A DNA stretch of 64,000 bases from Romanomermis culicivorax (Eukaryota > Nematoda > Enoplea > Mermithida > Mermithidae): positions 186,001 to 250,000 of the forward strand of contig CAWUHX010000081.1 in the NCBI GenBank assembly GCA_963922205.1. The letters are read 5' to 3'. The notes under the pieces are model-generated. The model had not been told where the DNA came from. It searched no databases and worked only from the letters and a program-made list of their open reading frames with translations. Within the stretch, counting starts at the first letter, position 1. The number at the start of each line of letters is the position of its first letter. This document shows positions 17,003 through 61,900 of the stretch, piece after piece. Made by a program: the position numbers and the translations under genes.

Positions 17003-17354
17003 GTGAGTAATATACATTTCTGCGGACAGTGACACGGCCTGGGTCAGGGCAGAGTCACTGGTTGGGGGTAAACTGCAGATGACGGTGGCCACCGAATTTA
17101 CCCTACCTTTAAAATTTTCTTTAGGCTTAGGCTTAGGGTACAGCAGCAAAAATTTGCATAAAATTTATTCAAATTTTTTTTTCCTTCCCGTCCCTTTCCG
17201 AGACCCAATTCCACTTCCATTGGATGCGCAACACCATAAAACCGCCAAAAACAGCCGTTTTGGAGATTTTCACTTGGCCACCATGTTCCCCAAATTTTCC
17301 AATTATTTAATAACTCTTCTATATTATTCCACAGCATACCTGTAAGAGGTCCGA

Positions 17355-18756: not shown

Positions 18757-20809
18757 CACTGTTTTTTTTTTCCACATTTGCACTATAATGTGGAAAAAAT
18801 TTTTGAGGTCTTTCCACAAATGTGGGAGAAAAATTTGGGGTTTTCATATTGAAAAGATACATTTTGGTGCATTTTAGAAGGTCATAATCTCAAAATTTTC
18901 CGGCGCTTCGCGCCGGTAATAACTTTAATAGTCATCATTATTCATTAAGTAGTTCAGGCGCGGCTTTATCATGTCTACCTTCATTTATCACTTAATCTAT
19001 AATAGTTTTCATCATCTTAAACGTAGTATCTCATGTTTTAATTGGTTATCTTCAACATTTTATCATAATATTTAATGAAGATTCGCATTTTTTCCTTTTG
19101 AGAAAGATGAATACACGTCAAGTCTCTATGATTTATGATGCGATTATTTCTTTGCTAACGTAAAATCAATTCAAAAGCTTCTTGGAAATATCTTTCGGAA
19201 ATTTATATTCTTCTTACTCATATATTTTCGACCAAGTTCATGAGAGTTTACAAATAAATTATACAGATTTTAAAATTTTTCAAGTAAAATTCTAGAAATT
19301 ACGACTCTTGAACACTAAATTGGAATCTAATTCTTGAAATGAATGTTCGGAAAAATGATTTTCCAGCATCCTAGAATGTCAATATACCCAAAAAATTTTC
19401 CGGCGCTACGCGCCGGAAACACTGTTTTTTTTTTCCCCAAATCGTGCTTTTTCGGGAAAAAAAATTCGGAAAGGGGAAAAAAATTTTGGGCTCTTTCCCC
19501 ATTTGGGGAAGAAAATTTTGGGGATCGGATACAGAAAAGATGCATTTTGGTGCATTTTAGAATGTCATAATCTCAAAATTTTCCGGCGCTTCGCGCCGTT
19601 TATTACTTTAATAATCATTATTATGCATTACTTAGCTCAGGCGCGGCTTTTAGCACGTCTACCTTCATTTATCATATAATCTATGATAGTTTTCATCATC
19701 TTGAACATATTATCTCATGTTTCATTGGTAATCTTCAATATTTTATCATGATATTTAATGAAGATTCGCATTTTTTCCTTTTGAGAAAGATCAGTACATC
19801 AAGTCTCTAAGCTTTTTGATGCGATTATTTCTTTTCTAACGTAAAATCAATTCAAACGCTTCATGGAAATATCTTTCGGAAATTTATACCCTGCATACTC
19901 ATATATTTTCGACCAAGCAAAGCATGAGAGTTTACAAATAAATTATACTGGTTTTAAAATTTTTCAAGTATAAAATTCTAGAAATTACGACTTTTAAACA
20001 CAAAATTCAAATCTAATTCTTGAAATAAATGTTCGGAAAATTGATTTTCCAGCGTCGCAGAATATCAATACCCAAAAAATTTTTCCGGCGCTTCGCGCCG
20101 GAAAGATTAACATCCATTTTGGGTTCTCACTTGTCATCATAGAGAACCTAACCATCGATTTCTCATGTAATTCTCAAAGTTATTATGCTTTTGGATAGTT
20201 TACTTGAAAATTTGTTCCAATGCTTGTAGATTAAACTTTGAACTCGAAAATTTCAATTTTTTCCTCAATTTTAATGAATTAACGGGTCTAAAAACACCAG
20301 AAGGCTTTAAAAAGCTCAAAAACACCTAAATAAAGCGTCTGTGAGCATTTTTAAGCGAAAAAAACGAGTTCGGGAAAATGGGGAAAAAAATTTTGACCCC
20401 TTTCCCCATTTGGGGAAAAGGCCCGGGGGAAAAAAAAAAACAGTGGCCGGAAAGTACCATCTTTTTTGGGCTTTCACTTGTCATCAGAGAGGACTTGACC
20501 ATTGATTTCTTGTGTAATTCAAGTCAATTATGCTCTTGGATAGTTTGCTACAAAACTTGTTCAACAACGCTTGTAGATTAGGCTTTTAAGTCGAACATTT
20601 CAATTTTTCTCCAATTTTAATGAATTAACTTCTCTAAAAACACCGGAAGGCTTGAAAAAGCTCAAAAACAGTGCGATAAAGCGTCTGTGAGCATTTTTAA
20701 GCCAAAAAACAGATTTTAAGACGAAAAAAAATTTTTTCCACATGTGGAAAAAAAATTTGACCCCTTTCCACATTTGTGGAAAAAAGTTCGTGGAAAAAAA
20801 AAAACAGTG
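18757..20809. mobile_element. Outer hAT-like element with TTCCACA/TGTGGAA palindromes, interrupted
   Basis: Tips are CACTGTTTTTTTTTTTCCAC at the left and the same motif inverted at the right (GTGGAAAAAAAAAAAACAGTG trimmed). The perfect eight-base duplication tgtacggg lies at 18749-18756 and 20810-20817. The subterminal palindromes are TCCACAAATGTGGG at 18812-18826 and TTCCACATTTGTGGAA at 20766-20781. A second copy sits inside at 19420-20445. Without that copy and its duplication the element is about 1019 bp. Body sequence on each side of the interruption aligns closely with the inner copy. No coding capacity is seen. Confidence 0.9.
19420..20445. mobile_element. Inner hAT-like element with TTCCCCA/TGGGGAA palindromes, inserted in its relative
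   Basis: 1026 bp. Tips are CACTGTTTTTTTTTTCCCC and, inverted, CACTGTTTTTTTTTTTCCCC. The perfect eight-base duplication gccggaaa lies at 19412-19419 and 20446-20453, and removing one copy restores the outer element's sequence. The palindrome TTCCCCATTTGGGGAA is present at 19495-19510 and again at 20402-20417. The bodies of the outer and inner elements are nearly the same length and clearly homologous, but every TCCAC site of the outer one corresponds to a TCCCC site here. Confidence 0.9.
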
Positions 20810-27921: not shown

Positions 27922-30900
27922 TCATGCCATTAATAAAGACATGCGTTCGCCGCCTGCTTTTTCCTCAAACTGACCATCCCATTTACTAGGATAAATATCA
28001 AGTCTGAGGTCCGGCTTGTCGCTGGATTTCTGGCACGGGTACACTTTTTGTAGAAGGCCGCGGGATGCAGAACTTGCCGATGTTTTGAAGTTCTCAATAT
28101 TGTCCGAACTCATGTCGTTCAGAAGAAAGCATTTATTACTGAATGCAGAAACAAAAAAAAGATAGGTCGTGTAGCGCGTTATTTCACGATTTGCATCTCC
28201 ATAACCTGAAAGTAAATTATGGGAAGTTATCATTGGGTTTCTAGCAGTTCATGGTTATTCAAAAGTTTTACTGTGCTCAATATAAAGTTCGAACTTTGAC
28301 AGTACTTTCGTCAACTCGATCAAGGCTTTGTGCATCTATAGACCATTTTTTCCGAACGAGCCTTGGATCGCTATTTTTATCAGATTAACTGCAGCAGTTC
28401 AGGTCTATAGTCTGTTTTTCTTGAAATGCTTCTAAATAATGAAAGTGGAAAGCAAGTACTATTTCAGATTTTCACGATTTTCTGATAAACAATATATCAT
28501 ATAAGAATGAAAATTTGTGAGCGTACTGACCTAACTTTTAACAACTTTTCGAGAGAAAAATTTATAGTAGGAGTCTATATAAACGATTTTGACAACGATA
28601 TTGATTTGTGTCACTTTTCTATTTGGAAGCATTTTATAAAAAACAGACTATAATTTTTTAACGTTAAGGCTTATTTCAAAATAAATGCACCACGGAGGCA
28701 GAACCCAAGAAACAAAAGGCGATGTGGAAGTCCTTGCAACGTTTTTCTCAAAGTAGCTGATGGAAAATTAGTTTTTTCGAAACCTGCAGTTTACAGTGGA
28801 TAAATTGACAAAAGTCTATTTTATTGTGTTAAAAGCCTGCAAAACTCTAAAGTCACATAAAAATTTCGAAAAAAATTTAAAAATTTGGGAACTACGCCCC
28901 TGTATAATCGAACATTGGCTGGCTGGTCTAAACACAAAGCTTTTACCGATGAAATAAAGTGCAACTGAAAGGTCCAAAACATTTAAAAAAACATCAACTA
29001 AATGAGCTGCACAAATTTTGCAGAGATAAAGCATTGTGTTTAGAGTTTTCGTTGGGAAGCTAATTCTTCTGACAACTGTTTTTTGAGTCAGTTATAGCAT
29101 AAAAATTATAATTTCACCCATAGCATTTTTAAAATTCTTTAAAATTTTAGAATTTCAGGTTTGTAAGCTATAGCTTCTTAACAGTTTTCAATGATATGCT
29201 CCTAGATGTTAGTCATGAAGATCTTTTCATACGTTATATAGCCGTTTCTATAAAGTATTTATGCGTATGCAGACATACTTTTGCAACCCATGAAATCAGT
29301 TGCAATGAAGAAAAATAAAGGCCCATCTATACTTTTTTCTCGAAAATTTGTCGCAAGTGATTGTAACGATTAAAATCGAACGAATCCCTCATTTTTTCTG
29401 TGCGCAAGAAAAATCTTGACGAATTCTATCTAGTGAACTATAATTTGCAAAAAAAATTTGCATAGTGTTGCAGAAATCGGCTATTTTGTAAGCGTCTTGC
29501 GTCAAAGCTAGATTTAAAGCACACAGTAGATATTTGTTGAACGTGTTTGGTATCTTTCGATCGGTAATTTCAATATCTACCTTGCGATGTGTTATATGCT
29601 GAAATTGCTCCAATACTTCAAGAGTAAATGGCTTGCGTACATTTTTTAGCGAAAAAATTATAGATAGGCCTTAAGTAATAGCTCGTGCTATTGACCTTCG
29701 TGCATCTTGACCAGAACATTTTCGTTTAACTTACAACTCTGCTTCATTATCATCATATATGTCATACGAATACTTACAGGTGCTTTATTATTGTGGTCAC
29801 TTCTGCTCCCGGTAGTAAATTGAGGCCGACTACTGCAAGCTATAGACGATATAGTTTATGCTCGATGCATTATGTTAGTGAATGTTGACATACCGTTGCT
29901 AAATTGACTGACCACCAGTGAAACGGTCAGCGTCCACAAAACGGCCCAGACTCCTTGATACATATACGAAATGTGGTAAAGATCGAAATCGAATTCGGAA
30001 CTGGTGTTAGCCGGCCGCAAAGTTTTATCAAAGTATGCACTTGAGAAATTACGATTCATGAACAAATTGCCAGTTTCATTGATGCACCCTGCCGTCGAAA
30101 GCGGTGCCGTTACCGAGAGTCGTCGGAAAACATAACTGCCGCTTGCTTGATAGACGGACATCACTTCGCCAACGATAAGGCCGGAAAGAGCTCCCTATGA
30201 AACCGTACGAGTATAAGGATATATAGACCGGGTGTAGCTCAGTATAATCTTTTTCTCAATGTGCCTGAAAGATGCTCATGCAAATAACGTAAAGATATGT
30301 GTAGACATTTTCCCGAGTTGGCTGTGGCAGTTAGGCGAACAAGGCCTACGAGGCAGGTTTATTGTCTGCTCACCGATGTTTTGGGATTATTTTTCTTTCT
30401 GATGCTCATTTGAAAATGGATAGACTATAGAGCAAAGTTGGAAGGAGCTGAGGCAGAAGGAGACGATTTTGAAAATTGAGTAAGGCGAAGATCGACAACC
30501 TGGATATCCAAATCCGATAACTCGGATGTCCGATTCCGACTCGGACAAGCAAGTTTTTCGGATAACGATAAGGATTCGGTGTAGTCAAAAAATGGAGACA
30601 TCCCATTACTAACTTGGTCAGCTTCAGATTCTTATTGTTACAGCCAGCTGGACGCGTAGAAGGATCAAGATGCCCAGTATTGTTTGCAGCGGACAATAAC
30701 AGAATAATTGGAACATGAACTTTGATAAGAATGCAGTTGATGTCCATAAGTGTTCTTTGTGGCTTGCTGCAGATCCTCCTGAACCCCCCCCCCCCAGTAG
30801 CCCGTTCGCTGGTCCTCAGCCCCACATGAGCGTGGGGACGTAGTTGGGGTTAGACCTCAGCCAGAAAATGTTTGACCTCCCCTAAATGAGGACTTTTCAA

Positions 30901-33900
30901 GGCTAGCAGAAACATTTTCTTTCAAAGCGCATGCATCAGTCAAAAGACTTCGTTGAAACTGTCCAGCAGAATTCTTTTTTTAAAATCAAAATAGTAATGG
31001 TATAACGAAAGAAATATTTTTTTGCTTTCTTTTGAATAAAAATGTCACCTGTGTCGTTTATACTATTGGTTTTCTTCCGAAAAAGTCATTTACTCCAATG
31101 AGATCTGTAGAAGAATCCGAGTAGATCTCTCATATGATCATAAATGAAGCCATGTGATGACTTTGCTGGTAAAGAAACAACTTCAGTTTGCAAAGATTAC
31201 CAAGAGAAAGAAGAAAATGAACAAAGCGAAAAAATAGCATTTTTAGAACATTTTCCTCCCTTACTTTCCATGTGGCCCACGAACACAGCATACCAAGGAG
31301 GAAAGTAGCCATAATGGGTCCTCCGATTGAGCCAAACAAAGAAAAACATGCCTGAATAAACTCGAAATTTTATAGAGTTCAATTAATCATGACCAACTCA
31401 CTTGAATCAGATTACCTAATGTCGATGCCGCCATCGCGATCATAACAACCACTGTCCCGTAGCCAACAACCAAAAATTTGGAAAATAACGCACTGTCGTC
31501 GTTTTCAGTGCAAAACTTGATCTTGGAATACGGTTTAATAAAATCTTCCAATGTTACAGTGACCAGGGCGTTCACGCCCGAAGATAGAGTGCTGAAAATT
31601 CAGAATTCATAGAGGTTATTTTAGGGACTTTTAAAAAATTACTGCTTTTTTAGTGAAATATGTAAATTTGTATATATTTATATTTCCTTTATCATTTTCT
31701 TTTTTTTCTTTTTATCGTTCTTGCAATACCTCTCCATTAACATTTTTTGATCAATTTGTCTCGTTATATCAAAGTTTTCGTTTTTACATTCATTTTCGAT
31801 GTGACCATTGTCAGAAAAAAGTTCAACGTTTCGTCATTATTTTATGGGTGAGCCTGCCATCAAAATATTGAATCTTTAGTTGATTAGCTAAACATACTGT
31901 CAATAAACTACCTTACATTAAACTTTAATACCTCATGGCTCCACTGAATATTGAGGCAACAAAAAGGCCCGTGAATCCAGGAATGTGACCAAAGTTGTCA
32001 ATGACGTAAAATGGTAGAATCTAAGCTTATAAAAATAGAAAGTATTGATGGTATGCACAATTTGAGATTTACTTGATCATTTTTGTTTATCAGGTTCACT
32101 GACAGTGGATCACAGTCTTTATAGCGAGTATAGGCGACAAGTCCGGCGAATCCGCATAAGAATAGCAGCAAAATCAGACCGGGTAAGTTTAGCCAAAGAG
32201 CACTAAGAAAAAAACTAAATAGTCATATAAACATGTTAAAGATTGATGTCTCTTCTGCAGTCACATTTGCGCATTTCTTTTTGTCTTGCAAGTCAAATAC
32301 CGTTGCACTTGCGACTGATTGGAACCGTAAATAACAAGCCACGTTACAGAGCCACCCAGGACTAAGGACCAAACTGAATGCCTTTTTAGAGGACTGACGT
32401 CCAAACTGAATATTAAATGGTAAAATAAGAGGCGTTTAGCATGAAAATTAAAAAAGGAGCAGTATACTCCGAAAATTCGATGCGATTCGCGGCTTTGGCT
32501 GCCGAAAATACCCTCCCTATTCCGCCCATTTGCCAGCATCCACAAACGACAACGGCCAGCATGCCGCCGAACATAACTACAATTTGGAGCACATCTGTCC
32601 ACATAACTGCTTTCATTCCGCCCTAAAGAATGCTATGTGTGTGTGATACAACTAAATGCAGCCAGTAAGCTCACCAGTGTAGTGTATGAAGTACAGACGA
32701 AACCGAGCACTAAAACTGAATGCGACCACGGTATGTCAGTCACTGCTTCCAACGCCAAGGCTGGGGCGTACAACACTATGCCCAAGAAAACTGTCTAAAA
32801 CGACGAGACGTTTCTTGATACTAACGATAAGGAATTCAAGTCAAGCACTGACCATCTGTACAATAGAGCTTAGCGACGCTGCTATTCGAACTGATCTGTG
32901 AAATCTTCTCTCGAGATACTATAAAAGAGCATTGCTGCATATAACTCCATATTCAGCGTTTCCAAAAACCTGCTGCTATCAAGTTTAGCAAGTAAATCGA
33001 TTACCCAATCTACTCACATTTATGGCTTTGGAATTACACGTATGCACCACATTCTGATCTGTGTCAGGTTTCATTAGAAAGACCTAAGCTGCAAAAGAGT
33101 TGCAGCCCAAACTGTTAGCTTAACTCTATATGCTATACCATTGCTGTTGGTACAGCTCAGTTGCAGCTTGACCCATACACATAACGTGTCGAGAAAATTC
33201 TGCTGCAGCTTAGTTGGAACTTATATGAAACCGACCCTGCACTTAAAAATAATGAAGTGCCGCCTTTTGGAATTAATTTGTTTTTCTAGAAATGCTTCTA
33301 AATAATGAAAGTGGAAAGCAAGTAGTATTTCAGATTTTCACGATTTTCTGATAAACAATTTATCGTATAGGACTAGAAATTTGTGAGCGTACTGATCTCA
33401 CCATTAAAAACTTTTCGAGTGAAACATTTTACGGTGAGAGCTCTATGTAAACGATTTTGACGACAGCACTGATTTGTGTCACTTTTCTATTTGGAAGCAT
33501 TTTATAAAAAGCAGACTATACATATACATTAAAGAGTAGCCAGCAGTATTCATAATTTTTATGTATATTTTACTGTAAAAAGCCTAAGTTGAATTGACTC
33601 TTTCATTTCTGAGTATCAGTCATTAATTTCGATTACCAGGATGAACTGTATAGTCAAACCTGCGTTTTTCTAAAATTTTCAATACATGCTTCATTGGACC
33701 AAGCGCATGAAAATTCTGTCTTGACACAATTTTTTTAGACAGTGAGCTCGTTAAAATTTTGATTTTAAAATTAGACTGTTTATTGGTATTTTATTTCAAA
33801 CTTGTTCATTCTTCCAGAATATGTCATAAAATAATCCATGATGAAAACCGAAATTAGTTTGTCTTGTGTTCGGACAAATGAAAGTTATCTTGTTCTTCTC

Positions 33901-36900
33901 CTGAATCTAAAAAAATACAAGCGTAATGACAGATATCTCAATCATTATATGGAATTGGAAAAGAAATAAAGTTATACGTGTGATGCCAAAGTAATTTTTT
34001 TGTCGAAAAAATCGAGATATATGTTTTGCACGATATTTACTGTCGTGTACTTTATGGTTGGTAATTTTTTGGATCACCTCCTTGACTTGTGAATAATTAA
34101 CAATATTAAAAAATATCAATGTAAATTACTGAGACGATTCATAGCCCGTTCGATAGAGTAAGATTCTGTTACAATTCGCCGGTAAAGTGACTAAATGATA
34201 GACGCAGAGAAAACCAGAAAAGTAAGTTCAATTTGATGGCGATGTTCGCTCAGCGGAAAAGGTTGTACCGTAAAAAATGCAAAATTTCTTCATAAGAATG
34301 GGAAAGACCAAAATCATTGAGAGAGATGCTTATCTATATTGTCGATTTGGACAGAACTTCGTCAATACCTGGGTGTTAACTCGAGAAGTTTTGACTACTT
34401 AACCGGGTAATTGAAGCAAATTTTCAGCTGTTCTGTTTGCTGCTCACTGACAAAAAATTTTTCATTGATTACAAGCAATACAAGTTTCTTCCGTTCTATT
34501 CAATTTTGGCGTCCGTCCCAATCTGCCATCCGTCCCAACTTGGCGTCCGTCCTAACTTGACGTTCGTCTCAACTTGGCGTCCACTGTTGAAGGAAAAGCT
34601 CCTTACTTGGCGTCTGTCCTAATTTGGCGTCTATTCCCAACTTGGCGTTCAATGCATTATAAAACCAAAGTTAAATTGATTCTGACGTTTTTTCCTCTTT
34701 TAATCTTTCGAATTTATTTTTATTTCTTCTTTGTCTTTAATTTTATTACGTATTATCTTTTTTTTCCTCCAATTATGGTAGGTACCCCTATCCATATTGT
34801 ATCGATTCATCGAATGTCCCTATTCCTCCAAAGTCCCAATTCTTCGTATAGTGCTTAAGATTTTATCTACAAAGTTCCGTTTTACCGAAAGTCCCGATTC
34901 CTCGAAATTTTTTTTTCAAAAATTCCCCGTTTCCTCGAAAACAATAAATGTGCAGCTTTAAATTTACCATTTTGTAACACGAAGATTCCCACGATATAAA
35001 ATTCCCCCCGTCGCTTAAGCCTAAGCCTGAATATAAGCCCTAAGCCTAAGCCTAAGCCTGAGCCTGAGCCTGAGCCAAAGCCTAAGCCTAAGCCTAAGCC
35101 TAAACCTAAGCCTAAGCCTAAGCCTAAGCCTAAGCCTAAGCCTAAGCCTAAGCCAAAGCCAAAGCCAAAGCCAAAGCCAAAGCCAAAGCCTAAGCCTAAG
35201 CCTAAGCCTGAGTCTAAGCCTAAGCCTAAGCCTTAGCCCAGGCCTAAGCCTAAGCCTAAGCCTAAGCCTAAGCCTAAGCCTAAGCCTAAGCCTAAGCCTA
35301 AGCCTAACCCTAAGACTAAGCCTAAGCCTAAGCCTAAGCCTAAGCCTAAGCCTAAGCCTAAGCCTAAGCCTAAGCCTAAGCCTAAGCCTAAGCCTAAGCC
35401 TAAGCCTAAGCCTAAGCCTAAGCCTAACCCTAACCCTAACCAGAAGCCTAAGCATAAGATTAAGCCTAAGCCTAAGCCTAAGCCTAAGCCTAAGCCTAAG
35501 CCTAAGCCTAAGCCTAAGCCTAAGCCTAAGCCTAAGCCTAAGCCTAAGCCTAAGCCTGAGTCTAAGCCTAAGCCTAAGCCTTAGCCCAAGCCTAAGCCTG
35601 AGTCTAAGCCTAAGCCTAAGCCTAAGCCTAAGCCTAATCCTAAGCCTAAGCCTTAGCATAAGCCTAAGCCTAAGCCTAAGCCTAAGCCTAAGCCTAAGCC
35701 TAAGCCTAAGCCTAACCCTAACCCTAACCAGAAGCCTAAGCCTAAGATTAAGCCTAAGCCTAAGCCTAAGCCTAAGCCTAAGCCTAAGCCTAAGCCTAAG
35801 CCTAAGCCTAAGCCTAAGCCTAAGCCTAAGCCTAAGCCTAAGCCTAAGCCTAAGCCTAAGCCTAACCCTAACCCTAACCCTAACCATCAGCCTAAGCCTA
35901 AGCCTAAGCTTAACCCTAAGCCTAAGCCTAAGCCTAAGCCTAAGCCTAAGCCTAAGCCTAAGCCTGAGCCTAAGCCTAAGCCTATACCTAAGCCTAAGCC
36001 TAAGCTTAAGCCTAAGTCTAAGCCTAAGCCTAAGCCTAAGCCTAAGCCTAAGCCTAAGCCTAAGCCTAAGCCTGAGTCTAAGCCTACGCCTACGCCTAAG
36101 CCTAAGCCTAAGCCTAAGCCTAAGCCTAAGCCTAAGCCTAAGCCTAAGCCTAAGCCTTAGCCTAAGCCGAAGCCTAAGCCTAAGCCTAAGCCTAAGCCTA
36201 AGCCTTAGCTTAAGCCTTAGCCTAAGCCTAAGGCTAAGCCTAAGCTTAAGCCTAAGCCTAAGCCTAAGCCTAAGCCTAAGCCTAAGCCTAAGCCTAAGCC
36301 TAAGCCTGAGCCTAAGCCTAAGCATCAAAGTAGAGCACTCCAAAAATAATCAGAAATGTTCATGGATGGCCATCAACAAAAAATCTTAATGCTGTTGGAT
36401 CTATCATCAAATATGGTAATTTTGAAATTGTAGTATTTACGATCGAATTTACAGACGTTTCAAGAAAATCGATCTGTTTGTATATGCACTTTGGATGAAC
36501 TGGGATTTGTGATGCACCAATGTTCGATGAATCATAAAGTTTATCTTCCCTTCGAGGAATCGGGACTGTCGAGGAATCGGGAAAGCATTTTCATGATGCA
36601 CTAAGGCATGTTTCGAGGAATCGAGAATTTTTCTAACTTTTCGAGGTATCGGGACTTTACCAATAGACCGTTGGAACTTTATGTCGTGGGAACCCTCACG
36701 TTACAGAATGGTAAATTTAAACCTGCTCATTTATTATTTTCGTGGAAACGGGATTTTTTGAAAAAAAAAATTTCGAGTAATCGGGACTTTCGCTAAAACG
36801 AGACTTTGTAGATAAAATCTTGATCACCATTCGAAAAATCGGGATTTTCGAGGGATTGAGACTTTCGGCGAATCGGGACGTTCGAGGAATAGGGACATTC

Positions 36901-38533
36901 TATGAATCGACACACAATGAAATATTTTACTTCTACGCTATTGGCCAATCACTTGTTTTGCTTTTTCACATACAAACACAACTGATCGAAGTGACTTTGG
37001 TTTCACACACAAGTAGCGAACACAAGTAGTATTTCAAGGACAACATAAACTTCGCATTTCCAAAATCACGCATGTTTTACAGAAGAACGCAACCGACAAA
37101 CTTTTCTTAGAACCTCAAATTGGACATTTTACGGTAAGTCTGTTAGATTTTGAGGACGTAGATAATTTATTCAATTTTTGAAATTCTGGGAACGTGCGAG
37201 TTTGCATGCAAAAATGAAATGTTTCTTTGAGGAACTATGTGTTTTTTTTCTCTGGAAAACTTTTTCTGTATGTAGAAAAATGTGGGTAAAATTTACGTAT
37301 ATTGAAAACTTCTAAACTGTAATGATTGTATCACTCGCAAATGCATACTTTCAAGGGTCAAAATTAAAATGAATTTGATAAGGCACATAGATCAATTTTG
37401 ATTCAAATCATATAATATGCCAAGTTAAGACGGACGCCAAAACACCAAATTAGGACGGACGCCAAGTTAGGACAGACGCCAAGTTAGGATGGACGCCAAG
37501 TTCAGTGAAAATCATTTTTTTCCGTATTAAACTTACTTTCACTGCATTGCTGCATTGTTCATTTCAAAATGAATGGAGTATAGCTCATGAAATTGGAAAG
37601 CAAGTTTTATTTTATAATTTTGTCTTTTCCTTCTTAATCACACTTGATATGTAGTTAAAAATTTGTGAGGACATCCAACTAACCCAATCTCTCTGAACAA
37701 AAAAGTTCTTCAGTAATAGTTTCGTGTAAACAATTTTGACTTACAGTGCATATTATCGTCATTTTTAAATTTGCCTTATCGAATAGAAGCCGTCCTCTTA
37801 TAGATCATGTACCAAAGAGCTTCTATAAAGATTCAAGTGGATCAGCATTTCACAATGCAAATTCTGAGAAAATATAAGAGAAAAAATGAAAAACCAAGTC
37901 CGCACAGAAGAAGGCTCAATGACGAGGAATAATTTTTGTTCTAGTGCAGGGCCAATTGACGTTTTTTTGTTGAAATTGTAAGAGATTTCAAGTTGGAGCC
38001 CAGTAGAAGATAATAGACCTGCCCTTCAGTAGAACCCACACCGGAACTGAGAATATCATTGAACTCGCGAGTTTCAGGATGGGTAAATATGCTACAAACA
38101 TTTTATTAAAAAAACAGATGCAGGTTTTATGAGTCTTTCCTGGTTTTGAACTTCAGTTTTAGTCCTTTTCTAGACTGACAAAAGGGAAAAATCGTTACAA
38201 TAAACTGACCTCATACGCACTCGTCAACTTCATATCGTAAAAGATGGGTATGAAAACCACCGACGTCACCGCTATAGCTACGACGTACGACAAAGCGACC
38301 ATCCAGTACATAGTGCCGTAGAAGTACAATTCGGAAGCAGTGCCCAACATAGTGATGGCCGACAAAAAACTGGCCAACAGAGACATCGAGACGGGGAAAA
38401 CCGACATATTGCGATCGGCCATCAAAAATTCCCTATTCGTCCTTTGTCGATCGCCTCGAAAGGCATAATAGAATCCGACAGCTGTCGAGGCCAATAGGGT
38501 GATCGAAAAAACGACGTAATCCCAAATTTGCAT
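27922..38533 (-). CDS. SLC5-family sodium/solute symporter, copy B, two possible C-termini
   Basis: Exons in coding order: 38210-38533, 32853-32918, 32675-32794, 32468-32622, 32265-32405, 32073-32202, 31932-32020, 31402-31591, 31265-31351 and 29894-30194. Then follows either 29774-29832 (553 residues, ending TTIIKHL) or 27922-28205 (628 residues, ending MSLLMA). Both last exons fit the phase-1 donor at 29894. Family marks include [73 protein letters not shown] and [15 protein letters not shown]. Exon lengths equal those of copy A except exons 8 and 10. Intron 1 is 5.3 kb against 1.1 kb in copy A because it contains the telomere-repeat foldback element and a MITE. The long tail has a hydrophobic start and a charged end. 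Substrate unknown. Confidence 0.92.
28402..28652. mobile_element. TATAGTCTG-family MITE, well-preserved copy
   Basis: About 250 bp with terminal inverted repeats: left tatagtctgtttttcttgaa, right ending aaaacagactata. The ends and the TA step fit a Tc1/mariner-type MITE. It shares long blocks with 33277-33521 and 40959-41190 ('atgaaagtggaaagcaagta', 'aacgattttgac', 'tttggaagcatttta'). Confidence 0.8.
29833..29893 (-). other. Short intron before the alternative last exon of copy B
   Basis: Donor AAC-G/GTATG at 29893 and acceptor TTGCAG at 29833 define a 61-bp intron on the short-tail route. On the long-tail route the same donor would pair with TTTCAG at 28206, skipping the short exon. Both joins keep the frame open. 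Confidence 0.5.
30780..30800. repeat. Poly-C run in an SLC5 copy B intron
   Basis: A run of about eleven C sits in the intron between the exons at 31265-31351 and 29894-30194. The surrounding open frame on the minus strand (30406-30825) has no family similarity I recognise and is not called. Confidence 0.4.
33085..33235. mobile_element. GCAGCTTAA-family repeat, copy 1
   Basis: The stretch carries repeated 'gctgcag/ctgcagc' words, the phrase 'taccattgctgttggtacagc' trimmed, 'acacataacgtgtcgagaaaa' trimmed, and an end 'cttatatgaaacc'. Similar arrangements occur at 42090-42260 and 62180-62395. It is probably a small inverted-repeat element family. It lies in intron 1 of SLC5 copy B. Confidence 0.5.
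33277..33521. mobile_element. TATAGTCTG-family MITE in intron 1 of SLC5 copy B
   Basis: About 245 bp and very similar to 28402-28652, for example 'atgaaagtggaaagcaagta', 'tgagcgtactgat' and 'ggaagcattttataaaaa'. The left tip is eroded; the right tip is gcagactata. Confidence 0.75.
34506..37502. mobile_element. Foldback-type element with minisatellite arms and a telomere-repeat core
   Basis: From outside inward: a 17-bp minisatellite (ggcgtccgtcccaactt) at 34506-34652, inverted at 37427-37502. Next comes an inverted repeat of about 205-240 bp, 34800-35005 against 36673-36911. It matches over long blocks such as 'ttttatctacaaag' and 'aaatttaccatt', and itself contains 16-17 bp units of the type gtcccgattcctcgaaa. 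The core is the TTAGGC-type array at 35010-36325 plus about 350 bp of other sequence. Right-side sequence 36912-37426 is longer than its left counterpart. No transposase frame is visible and no target duplication could be fixed. The whole structure lies in intron 1 of SLC5 copy B. Confidence 0.75.
35010..36325 (-). repeat. Interstitial telomeric repeat array, (TTAGGC)n with variants
   Basis: About 1.3 kb of CCTAAG on the plus strand, i.e. TTAGGC on the minus strand, the nematode telomere unit. Variants include TTTGGC (ccaaag, about 35152-35190), TCAGGC (cctgag) and blocks of TTAGGG (ccctaa at 35425-35441, 35711-35727 and 35868-35885). Longer phrases recur: 'accagaagcctaagcataag' at about 35438 returns 287 bp later, and 'cctgagtctaagcctaagcc' at about 35206 returns about 350 bp later. 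This suggests block duplication inside the array. The 440-codon minus-strand frame (Leu-Arg repeats) is a by-product. Confidence 0.95.
37580..37790. repeat. Degenerate TATAGTCTG-family MITE
   Basis: Recognised by 'ttggaaagcaagtttta', 'aaaatttgtgagga' and 'gtgtaaacaattttgac' in the order found in the preserved copies. Both tips are eroded. It lies in intron 1 of SLC5 copy B. Confidence 0.45.
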
Positions 38534-40323: not shown

Positions 40324-43300
40324 TCATGGCGTGGTAACCGGAAACTTGACCGGTCCGAATTTCATGAACGCCCACATGGAGTAGCCGAGGCATACAGCTT
40401 TCAATGTGTAATTGTTGAAAGTTTGTTCGAACGTCGTGCAATAGCCAATATTATTACCGTGCCAGCCTAATTTAGGCCTTATTTTGCCGATCACATGATC
40501 GCTCCTCGTACACTCGAAAACGCGGCTGTCCATGGCCAAACCGAAAAATTTGGCCAACCGATAGAGCCAAGGCTTGCCGGCCGAAATTTTGACGTAGAAT
40601 TCTTTTTCGTCGTTTATTTTGACCACGGCGTAGAAACTGGCGTCCAAAGCCTTGGCGGCGGGGCGTGAGTGTCGACGGCCGTCTCTTAGAGCGGCCTGGA
40701 CGATGCGGTACGTGGTGACGCCAAGGACGTTTTTAACTTTACCGACCGTCTCGGGTTGCTGCAAACTGGCTCTTTGTTGGTAGCCGGTGGGCGGCTCCGC
40801 ATTAGTTGGGTACGGAAAATTTTTGGCCTCGTCACATAGCAAGGCGTTAAAGATGAATTCGCCGGTCAGATCTTGGAGCACGAAACCTTCGTGTTGGGTT
40901 AAGATGGCTGAAAATCATGAAAACAGTACAGGATGGTCTGATAAAAAAAATAATTCGACTATAGTCTGCTTTTCTTGAAATGCTTTTAAAATAATAGCAG
41001 TAGAAAGCAAATGATATTTTGTACTGTTACGATTTTCTACTGAATCACATAGGACTGAAAACTTGTGAGCACGCTCAATTAATCTTGATAATTTTTTTGA
41101 GTAAAAAAAAAATCTTAAAAGTTTTGTGTAGAGGATTTCGACGACAGTGCTGATTTTTGTAATTTTTCGATTTGAACGCATTTTATAAATTAAAGCAATT
41201 TTTGTAGCGGTTTTTACGGTATAGCAAACCCTGAATCACAGCGATGCTCTTTTAAAATGAACAACCTTATTGTCAATTTTACTATGTATGGTACAACAAG
41301 TACTGGATACGTCCTCAATTAAAAGAAGCTTGATATTTTGGACAGTAAGCCTTTGTGTTTTTTGTAGGTGGAAGTAACAGGAAAGGCAAAGACGAGAATT
41401 AAAAAAGAAAAAAGTATGGAACTAAGAAAATTGGAAAAAATTCTCGGCCAATAAATAAAAATTTCTGTGGAAAAAAGAATAATACAAAATTTACAAATTA
41501 AACATTGTGATGAGAAATACAAACTTGAAAGGACAATATAGAAAGAAGTAGAAAACGACGAAATCGAAATCCCACGCAAAGAAAACAGTGCATAAAAACA
41601 GGCGAAATAAACACCGAAAATTAAAACCACAAATACAGGAAAACAGAAAGAGACCCTAAGAGAAACAAACTGAAATCAAATATAGAAGAAACTAAGGAAA
41701 TGAAAAAATGACCTTCCCTGATTAAAATGAGGAGCATCAAACGAGATTATGAAACGGAAAAAACAAATGAATGCAGGAACAAACTGAAATATTGAGAAAA
41801 GAAACAAGAAATATAAATAAGGAAGAGATGTAAACAAAAAGTACAGAAAACAAGTTAAAAAGAAAAAATTCAACATAAAAGTGACATTGAAAAACGAGAA
41901 AGTAAGCTGAAGTCGTGGTAACGAAAAAGCAAAAATTAAAAATTAAAAGAGCAAATGTTATTTCGAGAAACGGGATAGAAATCAGTAATGGTATGTATAC
42001 GAATAATACGAATACATCAACAGAGGGGCAAAAATGCAAACAACGCAACAAGGGAGGGAAAATAAGGACCAGAGTCTCGTTTCATCAGAAGTGTTATGCT
42101 GTTTCTACTGAGATGCAGCTCAGCTTTAGATTGACTCCTACACATAATATATTGAGAAAGTTAAGCAGTACCGTAACGGCAATGTCATGTAACATGCAGA
42201 GTTAAGCTACAGCATGTAGCTTAAGTTTCATATAGGTTTTATGTAGGACTTAAGTTGCAGAAAAAGCAGTGTGACTTTTTATGTGCGGAAATTTTTTTTA
42301 TGTTGCTCTACGTGGATTCACCCAAAAAATATTCGTTTTTTTATTTATTTCAACTCACGAATTTTCAGAAGCAGAAAGCAAAGAAAATATAAATTACATT
42401 TGCTTGGAAACAAGAAGAGCATTTTATCTTCGATGTTCACAGGCTATTCCATGCCATACACTTTATATTCATTTTTGTGGTGTTATTTTACAAGATTCTG
42501 TTGAAATTTCACCAAATTATAATGTATGAATAAATATATTCGGGTTCAGATTTTTCCACGAAATTTTAGCTTTTGTTTTACGAGCACGTTTAGTGTTTGT
42601 CAAACACTGCCGTACCTACATCATTTGTTTGAACATGTGCCATCATTATGATGTCTGTTGACATTATGGATACTTGGGAAAAGTCATCAGTGAAATGTCA
42701 ATTTTTGTTTACCTGATCTTCAACGTCTAAAAGGACTGGAAATCGGTGCAGACAAAAGTAAACTGATTTTGGTGTACATTTCTTTGTCGGCATTCCTTGA
42801 TCTGTGCTTTATGGAACCGCTTGTGGTCAAAAACACTTATTGCTTCGAAATCATTCACTCAGCTTTTCTCAAGTGTAGAAAGCTAGTTGAGTGAATTCTT
42901 CACTTAACAAGCTCAGCGAAAAGTGCAAGGAGACTGACTAGAAGGAAGCAGAAGGTAAAGAAGGAGAAATTGCAAATAAAAAAGGTTCAGTGTTCAGTCC
43001 GCTCAATTTCGATTGATGTTGAAGCATCTCGACAGATAAGAAAGGTAAAAGCAATACGATATTGTTGGCTACTTAAGTTTCAAGTTGGTGTGCAAATTGG
43101 TAGACAGAAATCAGTCGGTGAATTTAAAACTCAATGAACTCTAGCTAAAATACATAGAATTTAAAAACATGAAAGTACAGTATAATCTCTATGTGTTGAA
43201 AATCCTGCTGAATGTAGGAAGACTATTTTGACATACTGTAGAGTAAGACTGCTGTAACAGAAAGATTTTCACAATGTCAATAACATGGATAAATTTGGTC

Positions 43301-51454: not shown

Positions 51455-51934
51455 TCAACGGGATTGTGTAGCGGTTGGCCGACTGTGCCGTCTGGCCGAC
51501 TGTAGCACATGGCCGACTGTACCGGGTGGCCGAATTCAATTTGAAATAGTTTATATGTAAGTCGAGCCTTATGTAAAACGTTTTCGCACGAAATGTGAAT
51601 AAAATGTTGCTAAATATAGGTTTCAGTTCAGTGCACAAGATATCATCAAAAAATGCAAGAGCGACGCCAAAATATGCTAATTATATGCAGAAATATGCTC
51701 TTCATAATTTTTTAATTCATTATAAAAGCCTAGATTGATTGATTTTATTGACTTTTTCTAATATATTTCTAACAAAAAAAACTATGAATAAAATATGTTA
51801 GAACTTGGGAAAAAATAGAATTTTCAAGAAAGATAGAACAACAACGGAATTTCGTCTTTACTTGAGTAAATTATTTAAGGGTCGTACTCTGGAATGTCTC
51901 TAGCTCATTACTTTTTTTCGAAATATGGATTTAG

Positions 51935-52402
51935 CTATGGTAAAAGCCATGAGGCCTTCATGGCTATGAGGCCTTCATGGCTTTTACCACTTTTTACCTT
52001 CATGACTTTTTTACCACTTGACAGTCTTTCGCCATTTTCGACGCTTTTAATAATGTCCTGCTTAACACGTAAGGTTTCCGTCGTTGTAGCATCAGTTGGA
52101 GCACATTGTACGTTGTGGCCAACTTCGGGATCACTCCTGACTTGGCCATCCCTAACTACAACTCGCCTTTTTTCGCGTCCTAGCTTAGCACAATTGTTGC
52201 ATCCATAATACACGGCTTGCAAACCATCAAATCTTTGTTTAGTTTTATTGTTTTTGAAAAGCCAAAAATGATTGGGATTTGTGCGACTTTCGCTCTTGAG
52301 CAACGTCAAATTTCCATGAACTGTCAACAGATATTCTGCAGCCTCGAAATCATTTTCATTCATTTTTATAACAAATATACTCAACAAAGCGAATGGATAC
52401 AA
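51935..52402 (-). CDS. FLYWCH-like zinc-finger open frame inside the MULE-like element
   Basis: 156 codons between the two arms. The centre reads FWLFKNNKTKQRFDGLQ, then AVYYGCNNCAKLGREKRR and, about 25 residues later, GHNVQC. An aromatic start, YYxCxxC and a late His/Cys recall the FLYWCH/WRKY-like fingers that accompany Mutator-type transposases in nematodes, where they bind element DNA. The C-terminal part is basic. The last residues come from a short repeated word (gaggccttcatggc) near 51950. It may be a decayed or single-domain protein; start at the first ATG. Confidence 0.45.
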   Translation of the reverse strand: MYPFALLSIFVIKMNENDFEAAEYLLTVHGNLTLLKSESRTNPNHFWLFKNNKTKQRFDGLQAVYYGCNNCAKLGREKRRVVVRDGQVRSDPEVGHNVQCAPTDATTTETLRVKQDIIKSVENGERLSSGKKVMKVKSGKSHEGLIAMKASWLLP

Positions 52403-52736
52403 GGGGAAAAATTTCTTACAAAATAAAAAACTTTTGAATTCAAATTATCCTTGTGTGCTTTTACTTAATTAGCATATTTTTGTGTTGTTCTTGCATTTTT
52501 TGATGATATCTTGTACATTGAATCCTATATTTAGCAACATTTTGTTCACATTTCGTGCAAAAACATTTTACATAAGGTTGACTTATACATATAAACTATT
52601 TCAAATTGAATTCGGCCACCCGGTAGAGTCGGCCATGTGCTACAGTCGGCCATTTGCTACAGTCGGCCACCCGGTACAGTCGGCCAGCCGCTACAGTCAG
52701 CCAGCCGCTACAGTCGGCCAGACGGCACAGGTCTAC

Positions 52737-53930: not shown

Positions 53931-54324
53931 TTCTCAAGTTTAGTAGCATTTAGGACTAAACTTGTCGGCACAGGTTTATCATCTGCCTACCGATCTCTAC
54001 ATCCGAACCTCATTATTGTAAAATCGACTTTCAAAGTTATTCGGTCGTTAGCTTATTATTTTTTTGCTTTACTGTTGTTTTTCCTTTTTCACTTCTCGTT
54101 TGTCTTTGTGAAGTTTATCATATTTTTTTGTTTTTGTTTTTGTTTTTGTTGTCTTTTCTCTCGATTATCACAATTTTATCTACTTACTTTTTCGAATTTG
54201 TTGATTCTATGTCATTCTTGTACATTATCATTGTTTAAAAAAGCAAAAATTCCCAATTGTGTATTTTGCCATTCATGGGATTTGCAACTTTATATCCGTT
54301 TTTGCTGTAATATCGATCTTTCAG
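53931..54324. other. Upstream region of the RASGEF1-like gene
   Basis: A T-rich stretch with repeats of 'tttttg' near 54128. The first coding exon of the RASGEF1-like gene must lie here or further upstream, but I cannot identify it. A strong acceptor, CTTTCAG, ends at 54324. Confidence 0.3.
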
Positions 54325-57300
54325 GCTGACGAACCGTATCGGATCAAATATCCGACACAATCCGTTGATTCTCTGATCCGCGATTTATTCCCTACGTCAA
54401 ACTATTGTCCGGATCGAAATTATGTCTTCACAGTGCTGTTGAACATACGAATTTATATAAGCCCGCTGGATTTATTACGTCATTTATCTGATCATTGCAT
54501 GTTGGAAGCTCAAATCGGGGTAAAACTGGATCAAGAGATTTTTATCACCTTTCAATCCAACACAGCTGAAAAGTTTCTTTTGACTTTTCGACAGAAAAGT
54601 TAGTTGGTGATTTGACTCTAACTTTTCCAGATCGAAAACGACAAAATGAGCCGGAATATCATGCATCTTTTGTTCGAATGGTCCGAAGCTTTCCCGTACG
54701 ATTTTTGTGTTAAAGATTGTATGGATTTATTGAAGATGATTATGAAATTTTGTTGTTCGATCAATTCGGATTTGCGTTTATTGAGCGTCAAATTGATACA
54801 AAACTTGAATGGAAAGGTAAATTGTCCTCATTTTTTGCAAGCAGAAACATGATAGATGAATAGGCTACAGCAAGTAGACATAGAGATTTTGAACATTGAT
54901 TCTCCTGATCAGATTTTTCGCTCATTACCCTGATATTTTTCACAGTTATCTAAATTGCAAAGATACGAAAAAGCCCTCTACAGTCTCAATATGAATACCG
55001 GCCTTTTATTATGCGGTCCAACGGAAAACACGGTAAAATTTGGGACAGAATGTCTCGAAAGCAATTACTTCATCACTTTTGACTTTTTAGACTTCGATTA
55101 TCGACACTTTTTATAATCCAACGGTTTTTGCCCAACAATTAGCTCACATTGAATTAGTAAATTAAAATTTTTTCGGTTTCCTGCTTGGAATATTGGAACT
55201 TGGAATATTATCACTTTTTTGAAGGAAAGATTGAGCATGATTGGTTCCGAAGAATTCGTGTATGCATTTTCAAAGAATATTCTTTTGGACGTAAGTTGCT
55301 CATCATGGAATAATTTTTCTTTGTTATATCCTGTATTCATCCAACATGTCCAGTAAAAACTCGTTTGAAGAGAGGAGCACGGATTTGGAAAATGTACCCA
55401 TGGATGAGAAACCGATATGACTATTTCAGGATTTTATTCGTTTACAAAAAGAATAGAAACTGCTCTCACTGTATCCAGGAAACTTAACAAGTTGATGCTC
55501 TCAATGATCATGTTTTTCATCCCAGCTAAAGTTTGTCCTGCGAAAGTTTATTAACTTTCGAATTTTTTTTCAATGTTGCATATAATCTGTTTTTTATAAA
55601 AAGCGGGTAAATTAAAAAATTACAAAAAGTAAGTATCGCCCACAAAATCGTTTACACTGAGCTCTTGTTGTAGGAATTTTCAAAAATGGTAAAGGTTACT
55701 TGAATATGCTCGCAAATTTCTAGTCGTATGATTTAGTAGCAAATATCAAAAAAATATGAAATAGTACTATCTTTCTACTCTGAATATTACAAGCGTTGCA
55801 AGAAAAACAGAAAGTTGATTTGAGACTCTAATATCGACATATCTTCGATTTCGAGTAGTCCTTTAACCATAGTTTTTTTCAGTTGATGCATCCATGCAAT
55901 CGCCAAGACATGATTCACATGGAATGTAGGGCTTTCAACATAAAGCACTACGCCGAATGGTGCAACCGACTTCGACTTCTGGTCGGAACGGAAATTTGTC
56001 GGGTAAGGAGTCAATGTTTTGGATTCCAAGTACAAGTGCTTTACTGGTGTCCACATGAAAATCCGAACAAATGTAGGTTGCCTCAAAGTTCGATGCTCAT
56101 CTTGAGATCTCGAGAGTAATTTGATCAAGCCTCTATGAATTATGACGTTCCGATCAAAATTACTGATCGTAAGAAATATGACTTGACTGTAGCAGTTGCC
56201 GCATTTTTGGGGCAAGAAACTACCAATCAGTCTGTCAGATAAGGATTTTTGGCGTGCTTGATATATACAAGTCCGCCTTTTGTAAAATGCTTGTCAATTA
56301 AAAAATCAAATTAATAAGTATGGTTTTCAAAATTGTTTACATGCAGCTTTTACTCTAGATTCTACAGAAAGGTACAAAAATGTACTACAGTACTTGCTTT
56401 CCGGATTCATTTTTAGAAGCTTCTTACAAAAAACAGACTATATATGGGCAGCACGTATCGTAATTGATGATTAACAACAAATTTTTAGCATATTAAAAAG
56501 AAAAATCGAGCCAAAGCTTTGGAATTTTTTGTCGACGTTGCTCAGGAATGCTTTAATATGGGCAATTTCAATTCCCTTTTCGTTATAGCTGGTACGGAAA
56601 TCAAAATTCATAAAAAAATAACCACAAGAAAGCAAAAAATATCACTTTTTGCAGGTACCATCGATTCGAACGCGGTGAAACGATTGAAGAAAACGTGGCT
56701 GAAAATGAACAACGCCAGTAAATGGAAAATTTTGGAACACCAAACTGATCCGGGATGCAATTTCTCCAATTATCGGGCTACGTTGAAAGCAGCGAATTGG
56801 CGATCCAAAGATCGGTCATCGAAAAATCGTGATGGAAAAGTGAGAGAAAGTTTTATATTTGTAGGCTGGTTTGATATTCCGCGAATGGATTGGTTACTGT
56901 AGGCTAATAGAGTTACAAGACGAATACTCCAGATGACTTTTGTCGTGAGGCAGTTATTGAACCAAAATACAAGTTGCGAATTTCCAAAAGGAACAAAAAC
57001 TTTTTGGCATAAACTGAAAATTAGGAAATGAGCGGAACTGATTAAAAAATCCCAATTATTCATCAAACCTACGAAAAATAAAAAATTTATGAGACTGATA
57101 TCTAAATTTACAGAAGTTCCAATACAGACTGTTTTCTCCAAATGAGTCTCGATGAAGTAAATTGAAAGCCTGCATCGTAAGTGAATATACTTTTTCACCA
57201 GTTGACAGAGCGTCTGATTAAATATTCCGATTTGTGTTGCATGACGAAATCGGGTGTTTCTCTTATCTTTTCTCACTTTTCCGTCTTACGTTTAACATAC

Positions 57301-58912: not shown

Positions 58913-61900
58913 TTAATCTTCGTCCTCCTCTTCGTTGCGAGAGGAATCTTGTTCTTTTAATAATTTGAATTCGTTATCCCAATCCCAATCCATAGAATCA
59001 TCAAATTTTCTACGTTTCATCACTTTATCGCAATAGTTGATCAAAAGTTCGAAATCGGGCTTATCGTCAAATCTATGAGGGAATCATTGACAGATTTTTT
59101 CAACACAGGACTGAGTGTAACAACAGCGAATAATAAAGATAACGTCAGTAAGACTACAAAACAGCAAAATATCGTTATGTGCTATTACACCAACAGTTTT
59201 TTTCTGAAGATCCTCCTACATAACATAATGAAGAACATACTTCAAACTCTGTAAATGATCCACGTAGCGAATATATTCTTTTTCGCCAATTTCTTTGACC
59301 ATAACGCTGATAGGGTGCGCTTCTTTGGATTCGCAGACCGCCTCGTGCGTGGTCAACTTCCGCCAGGGCAATTGGCCGACGTAAAATTCGTAAGTCATAT
59401 AAAAATGCATTATCAGATCATCGCGACGGCCCAAATCCTGCGAAAGACGTAGCAGAAATACAAAAGAAAATTATTTTACGATAGACATAATTGAATGTTA
59501 CTGTAATTTTTCAACTTTTCAACTAACCTTACGCTTGTGGGACGCTATCGACGCGTATTTGAGCGTACCACGGAAGCCGGCCGTCGGTCTTTCGCGCCTG
59601 TGATGACCTTTTTCGTCGACAAACGTTCTTGATAAACCGTAATCCAATAAAAACACCACATCTTTCTGGCTAGAATCTGGCAGGCCCATTACATAATTTG
59701 ACTAAAAAACAAATCAGGTGAGGATGAGGTCTAAAAACCTTGGTTTTTATTGTCAAGCTGTAGTTTTCAAGGTGGTATTTACCGAAGTTACGATTTTTTG
59801 ACTCAATTTTCGCAGAAGTTCGAAGTTTTAGTTCTCATCTTCTCAAGAACGTCGTGCTCTGTACCTTACAAGCAACTGCAGTTGATTAGTATGGCAAAAT
59901 CTATATTTCCGAGGAACCCACTAATTTTTTTGTCGCTGGAGATCTACAATTTTTCGAGACTTTGACAGTCTACAGCCAAATAAAAGGTTTACATGCACAT
60001 GGGAGGGGGTTTGGGGGGGGGGGGGGTTTGACCCCCAGCAGATTTTTATTGACCCCCAGCAGATTCTTGCTGAAAAAAGTGTTTTCTAAGCAAATTATTT
60101 AATATATCTGACTAATATAGTCGTAAGAATATGCTGTTTGGATGTTAGAAAACCTTTCTGAGACCTTTCTCTTCATTATCAAGAATGAAAAAAAATTTGT
60201 ATTCCACCCCCCGTCCTGGCTGACCCCCAGCAGAATTTCTATGCTGTGCATGTATGGATACTATGTAAGTCATTCAAAATTTTTGTCTTGAGTTTTACTA
60301 CTCATGTGTTCTTGAAGTGGGTTTGTTTGTGGAAAAATCAAGTCGGATGATCTGAGACGAGATTCATTGAACGTACTGGTCGATTGGCTTATTGACGTTA
60401 ATTGAGAACTAATTTTCTTTTAGTATTGATTATTAACTACATAGCATGTTCTTCTGACATTATAACAGGGAACAGCTTCAAGGTACCATAGTTAACCGCA
60501 CTGATAAACATGTTTTTAATCAAGCATGAGGTTTGAGAGATCTTGTGTTATGAGACATCGGAAAACTCTAACGCTGCACAAAATTGAGCACCAATCTGTA
60601 GGTACGTTAGATCGAGGTCAACAGTCTGAAACGTAGTATGTCCATCCAAATAGAACTTGTTGACTAAATGCTACAACTAGAAGCTGATATATTTTTCTTT
60701 CTTTTGTGTTCATTTCAACTCTGTTAGCATGATTTTTCAAAGTTGCATATTGTAGAATACGAAAAGATATTATTTGTGGACAGCATTAGAAACGTATTTT
60801 AGAAAATCGAGCGTAAGAAAGACATAATTTGAAGAAATCAAGCATAATGTGAAAAATCATACATGAACAATTTCAAAACTATCTTTTGCTGGAGACTAAT
60901 CCCGAAATTCAAAAGATTTACACGTCTTACAAAAATTTTGAATTCGGCAAACATGTGATGATAAAAAAGTTGGAAAAGTACTCTTACAGTAATGTAATTT
61001 GGAGACGTCGAACAAATATTTTTAAAGATGCTAATAAGATGGATTCACAGAAAATATTGTTTCTATGTACCATTACCGGCTTTATGTCCCGATGTAGGAA
61101 GTTAATCTTGTGTACAGATTTTATGGCGTCCAGGCATTGTTTGGCCAATCGAACGCTGGTCGAACGCGAAAAACGTTTATTGTCTTCGGGGCATTGGCGC
61201 CTCAAGTCGTTCAAAGATCGACCCAGCAGCTGCATAACGATAAAATTATGTCTTTTGTTCAAAACGCCAGCCGCGTAAATTTGGGGGGCGTGGGTGTGTC
61301 CTAAAATTGTAGGGAAAAATTTGCATACAGGAAAAAGAGAAGTCGAAACGCTGATGAGACCTTGCAAAAGTTTCATTATCTTCAACTCCAAGGGTAACTG
61401 AGCTTTATACAATGGTTCGGACATTTCAGCTTTTAGCGCTGCTTTCAAACCAGTATTAGTATCGACGACCTTATAGACTTGACCAAACGCCCCCGAACTT
61501 ATTTTATTTTCCTGAAAATCGGAATGAAAGCACACAGATGGAGGAAGATGGCAATAAATTTATCGTCGTATTATATTATGGTAAGCAAGCCTGAAACCAG
61601 AAATTTTTTTTGGGGGCGCATACATTTTTTTCAGTCGATTTACTGTAAAATTGGCATTTCTTACTGGATTTTTTTCTGATGAAACGGAACCAAGGGTTTT
61701 TTGCTTTTTTTGACACTTGAAAAATTGGGGGGGGGGCATGGCCTCCAACCCCCCTGCCTACAGGCCTGATGGTAAGCATTTTCGTGCCTAACTGTAACGA
61801 TTGATCGAAACGTGAATTAATAATCGTTTCTGGTTTATTTACAGATTTTCTTTGTATTATTGTCAACGCTTAAATGTTATTCTCTCATAATCATTTCTCT

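Follow-up and report, generated by a model that had tools for sequence, protein, structure and literature searches.

Foldback elements of Drosophila have inverted termini that carry tandem repeats. The locus described here is likened to them, and to the Tetris-type elements of Drosophila, by its build and not by its sequence. The title of the Tetris report presents a Foldback element as a source of satellite DNA; the internal array here consists of telomere repeats.

The nearest described relative that was found is Tm1, a Mutator/Foldback family of root-knot nematodes (PMC3169594; what is given here on Tm1 refers to the accessible part of that article). Both are found in nematode hosts. In both, the inverted termini are composite, with short tandem units that vary in number and are unequal at the two ends, and an inverted-repeat element is nested in another one at one locus. 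The unit is 13-15 bp long in Tm1 and 17 bp long here. Target duplications of 8-10 bp, located outside short asymmetric end motifs, are found in 45 of the 53 complete Tm1 elements; duplications are thus usual in Tm1, whereas those found here are candidates, two in number and similar in layout to those of Tm1. A transposase is reported for Tm1, whereas the frames scanned here gave none, but only a weak RYYR-CCHC match. A telomere array is present here, whereas none is mentioned in the accessible part of PMC3169594.

TTAGGC is the telomere repeat of most nematodes, and 1,229 interstitial telomere tracts are reported in C. elegans (PMC9071541, accessible part). The array described here resembles the Caenorhabditis tracts in being degenerate TTAGGC inside a chromosome; it differs from them, as far as they are described there, in being framed by two foldback layers. 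It resembles the TALT templates of C. elegans (PMC4595603, accessible part) in that both are telomere repeats situated internally, within a gene or close to one. In TALT1, two tracts of the same orientation enclose unique DNA, whereas here a pair of inverted arms encloses one tract. An arrangement like that of TALT1 is absent from the 64 kb analysed, where the only other tandem TTAGGC is a 12-base (TTAGGC)2 at 17121. Tandem-unit foldbacks in nematodes (Tm1) and common interstitial TTAGGC in C. elegans are already known. Among the literature matches listed (titles and abstract starts), their combination was not found and no foldback element carrying telomere repeats is described, which is no proof of absence.

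Host gene and intron

The window is the whole stretch of DNA that was analysed: 64,000 nucleotides of contig CAWUHX010000081.1 of Romanomermis culicivorax, with a G+C content of 36.5%, without gaps and without any N. Two paralogous genes of the sodium:solute symporter family (SLC5; Pfam SSF, PF00474) lie in tandem on its minus strand. The frame of the first coding exon starts at 38533 in the gene that bears the array (PF00474 match, E 7.1e-07) and at 27094 in its paralogue (E 1.9e-06); the two frames are 68% identical across 112 residues. Paired exons continue, matched down to about 29900 in the former gene and about 21920 in the latter.

The whole structure is located in an intron of the first gene (32919-38209, minus strand, 5,291 bp, GT/AG borders). 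The equivalent intron of the paralogue (26770-25666, minus strand, GT/AG borders) is 1,105 bp long. The Pfam matches, the paired exons and the measured lengths agree with a reading made earlier from the sequence alone, which had placed the structure in intron 1 of one of two tandem SLC5 genes and had given the paralogue an intron of 1.1 kb. "Intron 1" refers here to the intron that follows the ATG exon; any exon further upstream would change its number. Coding exons flank the array on both sides, which places it away from a chromosome end.

Copies of a repeat some 240 bp in length are dispersed over the window in both orientations (8371-8603, 28413-28652, 33279-33520, 40959-41189, 55581-55811 and weaker copies); one copy is located in the same SLC5 intron as the array. 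A tandem duplication of about 630 bp is found at 18792-19419 and 19475-20104 (88% identity).

The Pfam scan covered 52 distinct open frames out of the 224 that encode at least 65 amino acids; most frames and the short exons lie outside it. Six of the 52 frames match Pfam: SSF in two, a kinase, RasGEF, RasGEF_N (just under the cut-off) and a weak RYYR-CCHC. No transposase was found among these 52 frames. The RasGEF_N-like frame (28.2 bits, cut-off 28.3) and the RasGEF frame are located at 54205-54603 and 56489-56902, respectively (plus strand). The best solved-structure matches of the frame at 60984-61559 (minus strand) are tau-tubulin kinases. An open frame at 6026 (plus strand) has two CCHC-knuckle-like motifs, of a kind that occurs in retroelement Gag proteins; the frame 6017-6457 has no Pfam match at E 0.01.

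The telomere-repeat array

The interstitial array, (TTAGGC)n, covers 35013-36324 (1,312 bases, hexamer parse); Tandem Repeats Finder gives 35016-36323, with a period of 6, 217.8 copies and 91% matches. TTAGGC is read on the minus strand, in the sense direction of the host gene, whose transcript would therefore carry UUAGGC. The array is an interstitial telomere tract as defined for nematodes: degenerate TTAGGC, away from a chromosome end. It is parsed into 218 hexamers, 156 of which are perfect and 62 non-canonical (most commonly TCAGGC, 10; TTAGGG, 9; TTTGGC, 7; TAAGGC, 6), and 6.3-6.6% of its bases are off consensus.

The orientation is single: reversed TTAGGC is absent from 35013-36324. When the array is divided into 11 blocks of at most 120 bases, each block fits best in the same hexamer phase; the array has therefore decayed mostly by substitution. 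Neighbouring hexamers have variants in common, as slippage predicts: 23 at lag 6, whereas 100 shuffles never gave more than 10. This sharing involves 23 of 140 positions at lag 6 and 18 of 144 at lag 12. A long-range higher-order repeat was sought and rejected, as just 8 of 115 informative positions are shared at lag 288. Single orientation and local sharing of variants are both direct observations.

The inner foldback

The inverted repeat that had been proposed to frame the array is real, and its arms are far more alike (82-84%) than expected by chance. Without gaps, 34803-35012 (plus) pairs with 36666-36875 over 210 bp with 82% complementarity; BLAST gives 34803-35005 against 36673-36875, with 84%. 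Compared in inverted orientation, the sequences on either side of the array reach a best local score of 244, whereas none of 200 first-order resamplings exceeds 42. Pairing of 34793-34842 with 36870-36919 extends the left arm outwards to about 34793; the right arm covers 36666-36919 (minus). On its loop side, the left arm ends at 35005 (BLAST) or 35012 (ungapped) and adjoins the array, whose first base is 1 to 8 bases beyond the paired sequence.

The arms carry a 17-bp unit, similar to TCGAAAGTCCCGATTCC, that differs in sequence from the outer unit and that the sequence-only reading overlooked. Units matching at 12 or more of 17 positions are found at 34810, 34827 and 34885 in the left arm (plus) and at 36744, 36777, 36835, 36852, 36869 and 36886 in the right arm (minus), i.e. 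three and six, at a threshold for which shuffled sequence yields 8.2 matches per whole window. Three more units are found in the loop between the array and the right arm (36325-36665, 341 bases), in right-arm orientation: 36556 (16/17), 36617 (12/17) and 36645 (13/17). Together they span 36556-36661 and have no counterpart on the left. Any one unit at 12-13/17 may be a chance match, though such units are clustered here; on the right, four of the nine inner units are of this kind. A deletion could equally account for the asymmetry of the inner loop, in which the array directly follows the left arm while the rest of the loop and the extra units lie on the right.

For the duplex of the arms, -271.5 kcal/mol is predicted; 30 shuffles average -70.6. 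The arms are predicted to put double-stranded RNA, together with a UUAGGC tract, into the transcript.

The outer minisatellite pair

An inverted 17-bp minisatellite is found outside the inner arms, where it had been noted earlier. Its left part, with unit GGCGTCCGTCCYAACTT, covers 34506-34648 (plus); five units that match at 14 or more of 17 positions start at 34508, 34525, 34542, 34559 and 34609. Its right part is inverted and covers 37419-37502 (minus), with four units at 37422, 37447, 37464 and 37481. The inverted score of the pair is 67, against a null maximum of 29 (200 resamplings).

This outer layer consists of inverted minisatellites only, without long inverted arms. The outer and inner layers are separated by spacers (about 145 bp on the left and about 500 bp on the right) that are not inverted copies of each other. 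Their best inverted score is just 25, a value given without a null, and the structure is therefore read as two nested elements and not as one. A single large composite element is disfavoured on the same score.

Other foldbacks and minisatellites in the window

A separate foldback of similar build, also missed by the sequence-only reading, is located 14 kb from the array (51467-52730). Its arms (51467-51683 and 52466-52678) are 88% identical over 219 aligned columns and its loop is about 780 bp long. It has a third 17-bp unit, about GGCCGACTGTACCGGCT, found three times on the left and six times on the right (at least 12/17). The telomere array is absent from it. An ORF in its loop (51935-52444, minus strand) weakly resembles Pfam RYYR-CCHC (17 bits, below the cut-off of 27; E=0.0058); its predicted structure has a pLDDT of 37.6 and is unusable. 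Zinc fingers of the general RYYR-CCHC kind occur in transposases.

Two features of Foldback-like elements are thus found: long inverted termini (inner foldback, 210 bp at 82-84%; separate element, 88%) and terminal tandem units in unequal numbers (outer, 5/4; inner, 3/6 plus three in the loop; separate, 3/6). The window has 22 tandem-repeat rows; 6 of them have a period of 17, and all 6 are in the two loci with 17-bp foldbacks; one of these rows (two copies at 51949) is in the loop and not in an arm. Another inverted repeat (9712-10218 against 11201-11649) is decayed and has no period-17 row; a dispersed copy related to it is found at 164-388. Foldback DNA amounts, without the array, to 4,963 bases or 7.9% of the window. 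Anatomy, layering and the recurrence of the build within the window can all be read directly from the DNA.

Common ancestry of the three 17-bp units was considered but is unproven: their best circular identities are 8, 9 and 9 of 17 (p 0.81, 0.49 and 0.39). A putative end motif that the inner and the separate element seem, by eye, to have in common is not claimed. The units are not alike beyond chance, and the common period is therefore a likeness of build and not proof of one family. Further matches to the units elsewhere in the window are single and at 12-13/17, with 3 to 11 per unit expected by chance. BLAST at E up to 1e-4 detects no further copy of the inner arms in the window. The units were also sought in viral contigs, a collection not expected to hold nematode DNA, and none was found. 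None of 35 public telomere-repeat loci (4 viral and 31 genome stretches, the latter from prokaryote-titled records; perfect runs of 36-120 bp) has any of the three units at 15 or more of 17 positions, and these loci are not counted as relatives. Two other minisatellites, at 62851-62972 (periods 16/31) and 3838-3967 (29/61 bp), have no inverted partner (BLAST E up to 1e-4).

Target-site duplications and age

Direct repeats were sought in the 28-base flanks of each element, with 3,000 random pairs as the null. The candidate duplication of the outer element is TTTCTTCCGT at 34485-34494 (plus) and TTTTTTCCGT at 37516-37525 (plus); these match at 9 of 10 positions (p=0.064, a weak lead). That of the separate foldback is CAACGGG at 51456 and 52745 (7/7, p=0.064, likewise a weak lead). 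For the inner element, no duplication is found in the 28-base flanks (p=0.48 or 0.87, depending on where its ends are placed). The candidates being weak and the inner element having none, we infer the transposition of each layer from the architecture.

In the body of the inner arms, 19 of 155 columns differ, i.e. 0.067 per lineage (bootstrap 0.041-0.099). When the minisatellite part is included, the arms differ at 33 of 209 columns (0.089, 0.062-0.124) and so look older. The array differs from a perfect hexamer run at 83 of 1,308 positions, or 0.066 after correction; this value is no clock, as slippage has clumped the variants and the tract may have been impure from the start. By these two divergences, the array may be about as old as the arms or slightly younger; this is in keeping with an arrival of both together, or with a capture that followed shortly.

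Origin of the array

The frame is read as two nested, decayed, non-autonomous Foldback-like (composite-terminus) DNA elements, and the array as the result of capture at a hairpin break followed by slippage; a probability of about one half is given to this reading. An outer element, ending in one 17-bp minisatellite, would have inserted into the intron. An inner element, with the other 17-bp unit in its arms, would then have inserted into the loop of the outer one. The inner palindrome would have been extruded as a hairpin and broken near its stem-loop boundary. Germline repair would have added TTAGGC to the broken end, either by telomerase or by the copying of telomeric DNA or RNA; the inner part of the left arm was possibly lost during this repair. 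The tract would then have grown by local slippage and gained point changes.

The array is located within the inverted arms; therefore, it is not simply a pre-existing tract beside which an element landed. It either moved inside the inner element or came later. A hairpin would be expected to break at the base of its stem, where the array starts. Insertion of telomeric repeats linked to repair is documented in mammals, where the resulting tracts are termed short stretches (PMC7215372, accessible part). The closeness of the array to the stem base and this documented type of repair place capture ahead of transport by the element. An array of 1.3 kb is long for a single repair insertion and would need later growth, which counts against capture. 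The contact between array and left arm could also reflect a deletion and not a break at the stem base, and the equal divergences fit joint transport just as well as capture. Since the window has no second copy and the inner element no target duplication, capture is preferred by default and by base rate: foldbacks make up 7.9% of the window, so that one array inside one of them is only mildly unusual.

It is possible, at rather low odds, that the inner foldback already contained the array when it jumped and is thus mobile and disperses interstitial telomere tracts. The array is indeed inside the inverted arms and not beside them, its divergence agrees with that of the arm body (0.066 vs 0.067) and foldbacks of similar build recur in the window. 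However, neither the arms nor the array have a second copy in the 64 kb, the 17-bp units are matched elsewhere in the window only singly and at chance level (12-13/17), the inner element has no target duplication (p=0.48), the 17-bp foldback at 51.5 kb has no telomere array, and array-free foldback DNA is itself frequent (7.9% of the window). Of the layered, mobile-element-like arrangement proposed earlier, the framing holds and is strengthened by the foldback at 51467-52730; carriage and spread of telomere sequence are unsupported, with no copy in the window and no inner duplication. Repair with telomeric DNA had been rejected in that proposal. The rejection is not justified, given the lack of an inner target duplication, the lack of a copy in the window and the share of foldbacks (about 8%); repair of a hairpin liable to break is at least as good an explanation as transport by a mobile unit. 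Wider still is the proposal that a foldback DNA transposon family acquired telomere repeats of its host within the loop and distributes copies among further chromosomal sites, as a source of the interstitial tracts of nematodes; this is doubtful.

It is improbable that the array grew from a telomere-like seed within the loop through replication slippage and nothing else, and so owes nothing to a telomeric source. The strong sharing of variants by adjacent hexamers is in line with such growth, as are the perfect TTAGGC runs of 36-120 bp in the 31 stretches from prokaryote-titled records. The motif is, however, the exact nematode telomere repeat, and a chance microsatellite of 1.3 kb made of precisely this hexamer is unlikely in a genome that uses this repeat at its telomeres, as this one presumably does.

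Inverted repeats together with telomere DNA can mark the healing or fusion of chromosome ends. The array would be a remnant of such an event if an end inverted by a foldback had been capped and later fused, which is very improbable. A head-to-head fusion gives both orientations, whereas one is present here; the earlier dismissal of a chromosome fusion is sound in this respect. In addition, the arms carry tandem-unit modules, coding exons of the host gene are found on both sides, and the interstitial tracts of Caenorhabditis are considered unlikely to derive from head-to-head fusions (PMC9071541, accessible part). An assembly artefact, in which telomere reads were joined to an internal locus, is scarcely credible: long simple arrays are hard to assemble, but 62 of the 218 units are non-canonical, matched arms frame the array within one intron and the window has no N.

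Significance

The abundance of interstitial tracts in C. elegans is called a mystery in a 2022 review, and about 5% of the uncapped telomeres of telomerase mutants start DNA synthesis at interstitial tracts (PMC9071541, accessible part). A tract locked in a palindrome is a concrete place in which transport by an element can be separated from capture at a hairpin break. Should its origin prove ordinary, the locus would still be an example of nested foldbacks that enlarge an intron, with double-stranded RNA and a UUAGGC tract predicted in the transcript.
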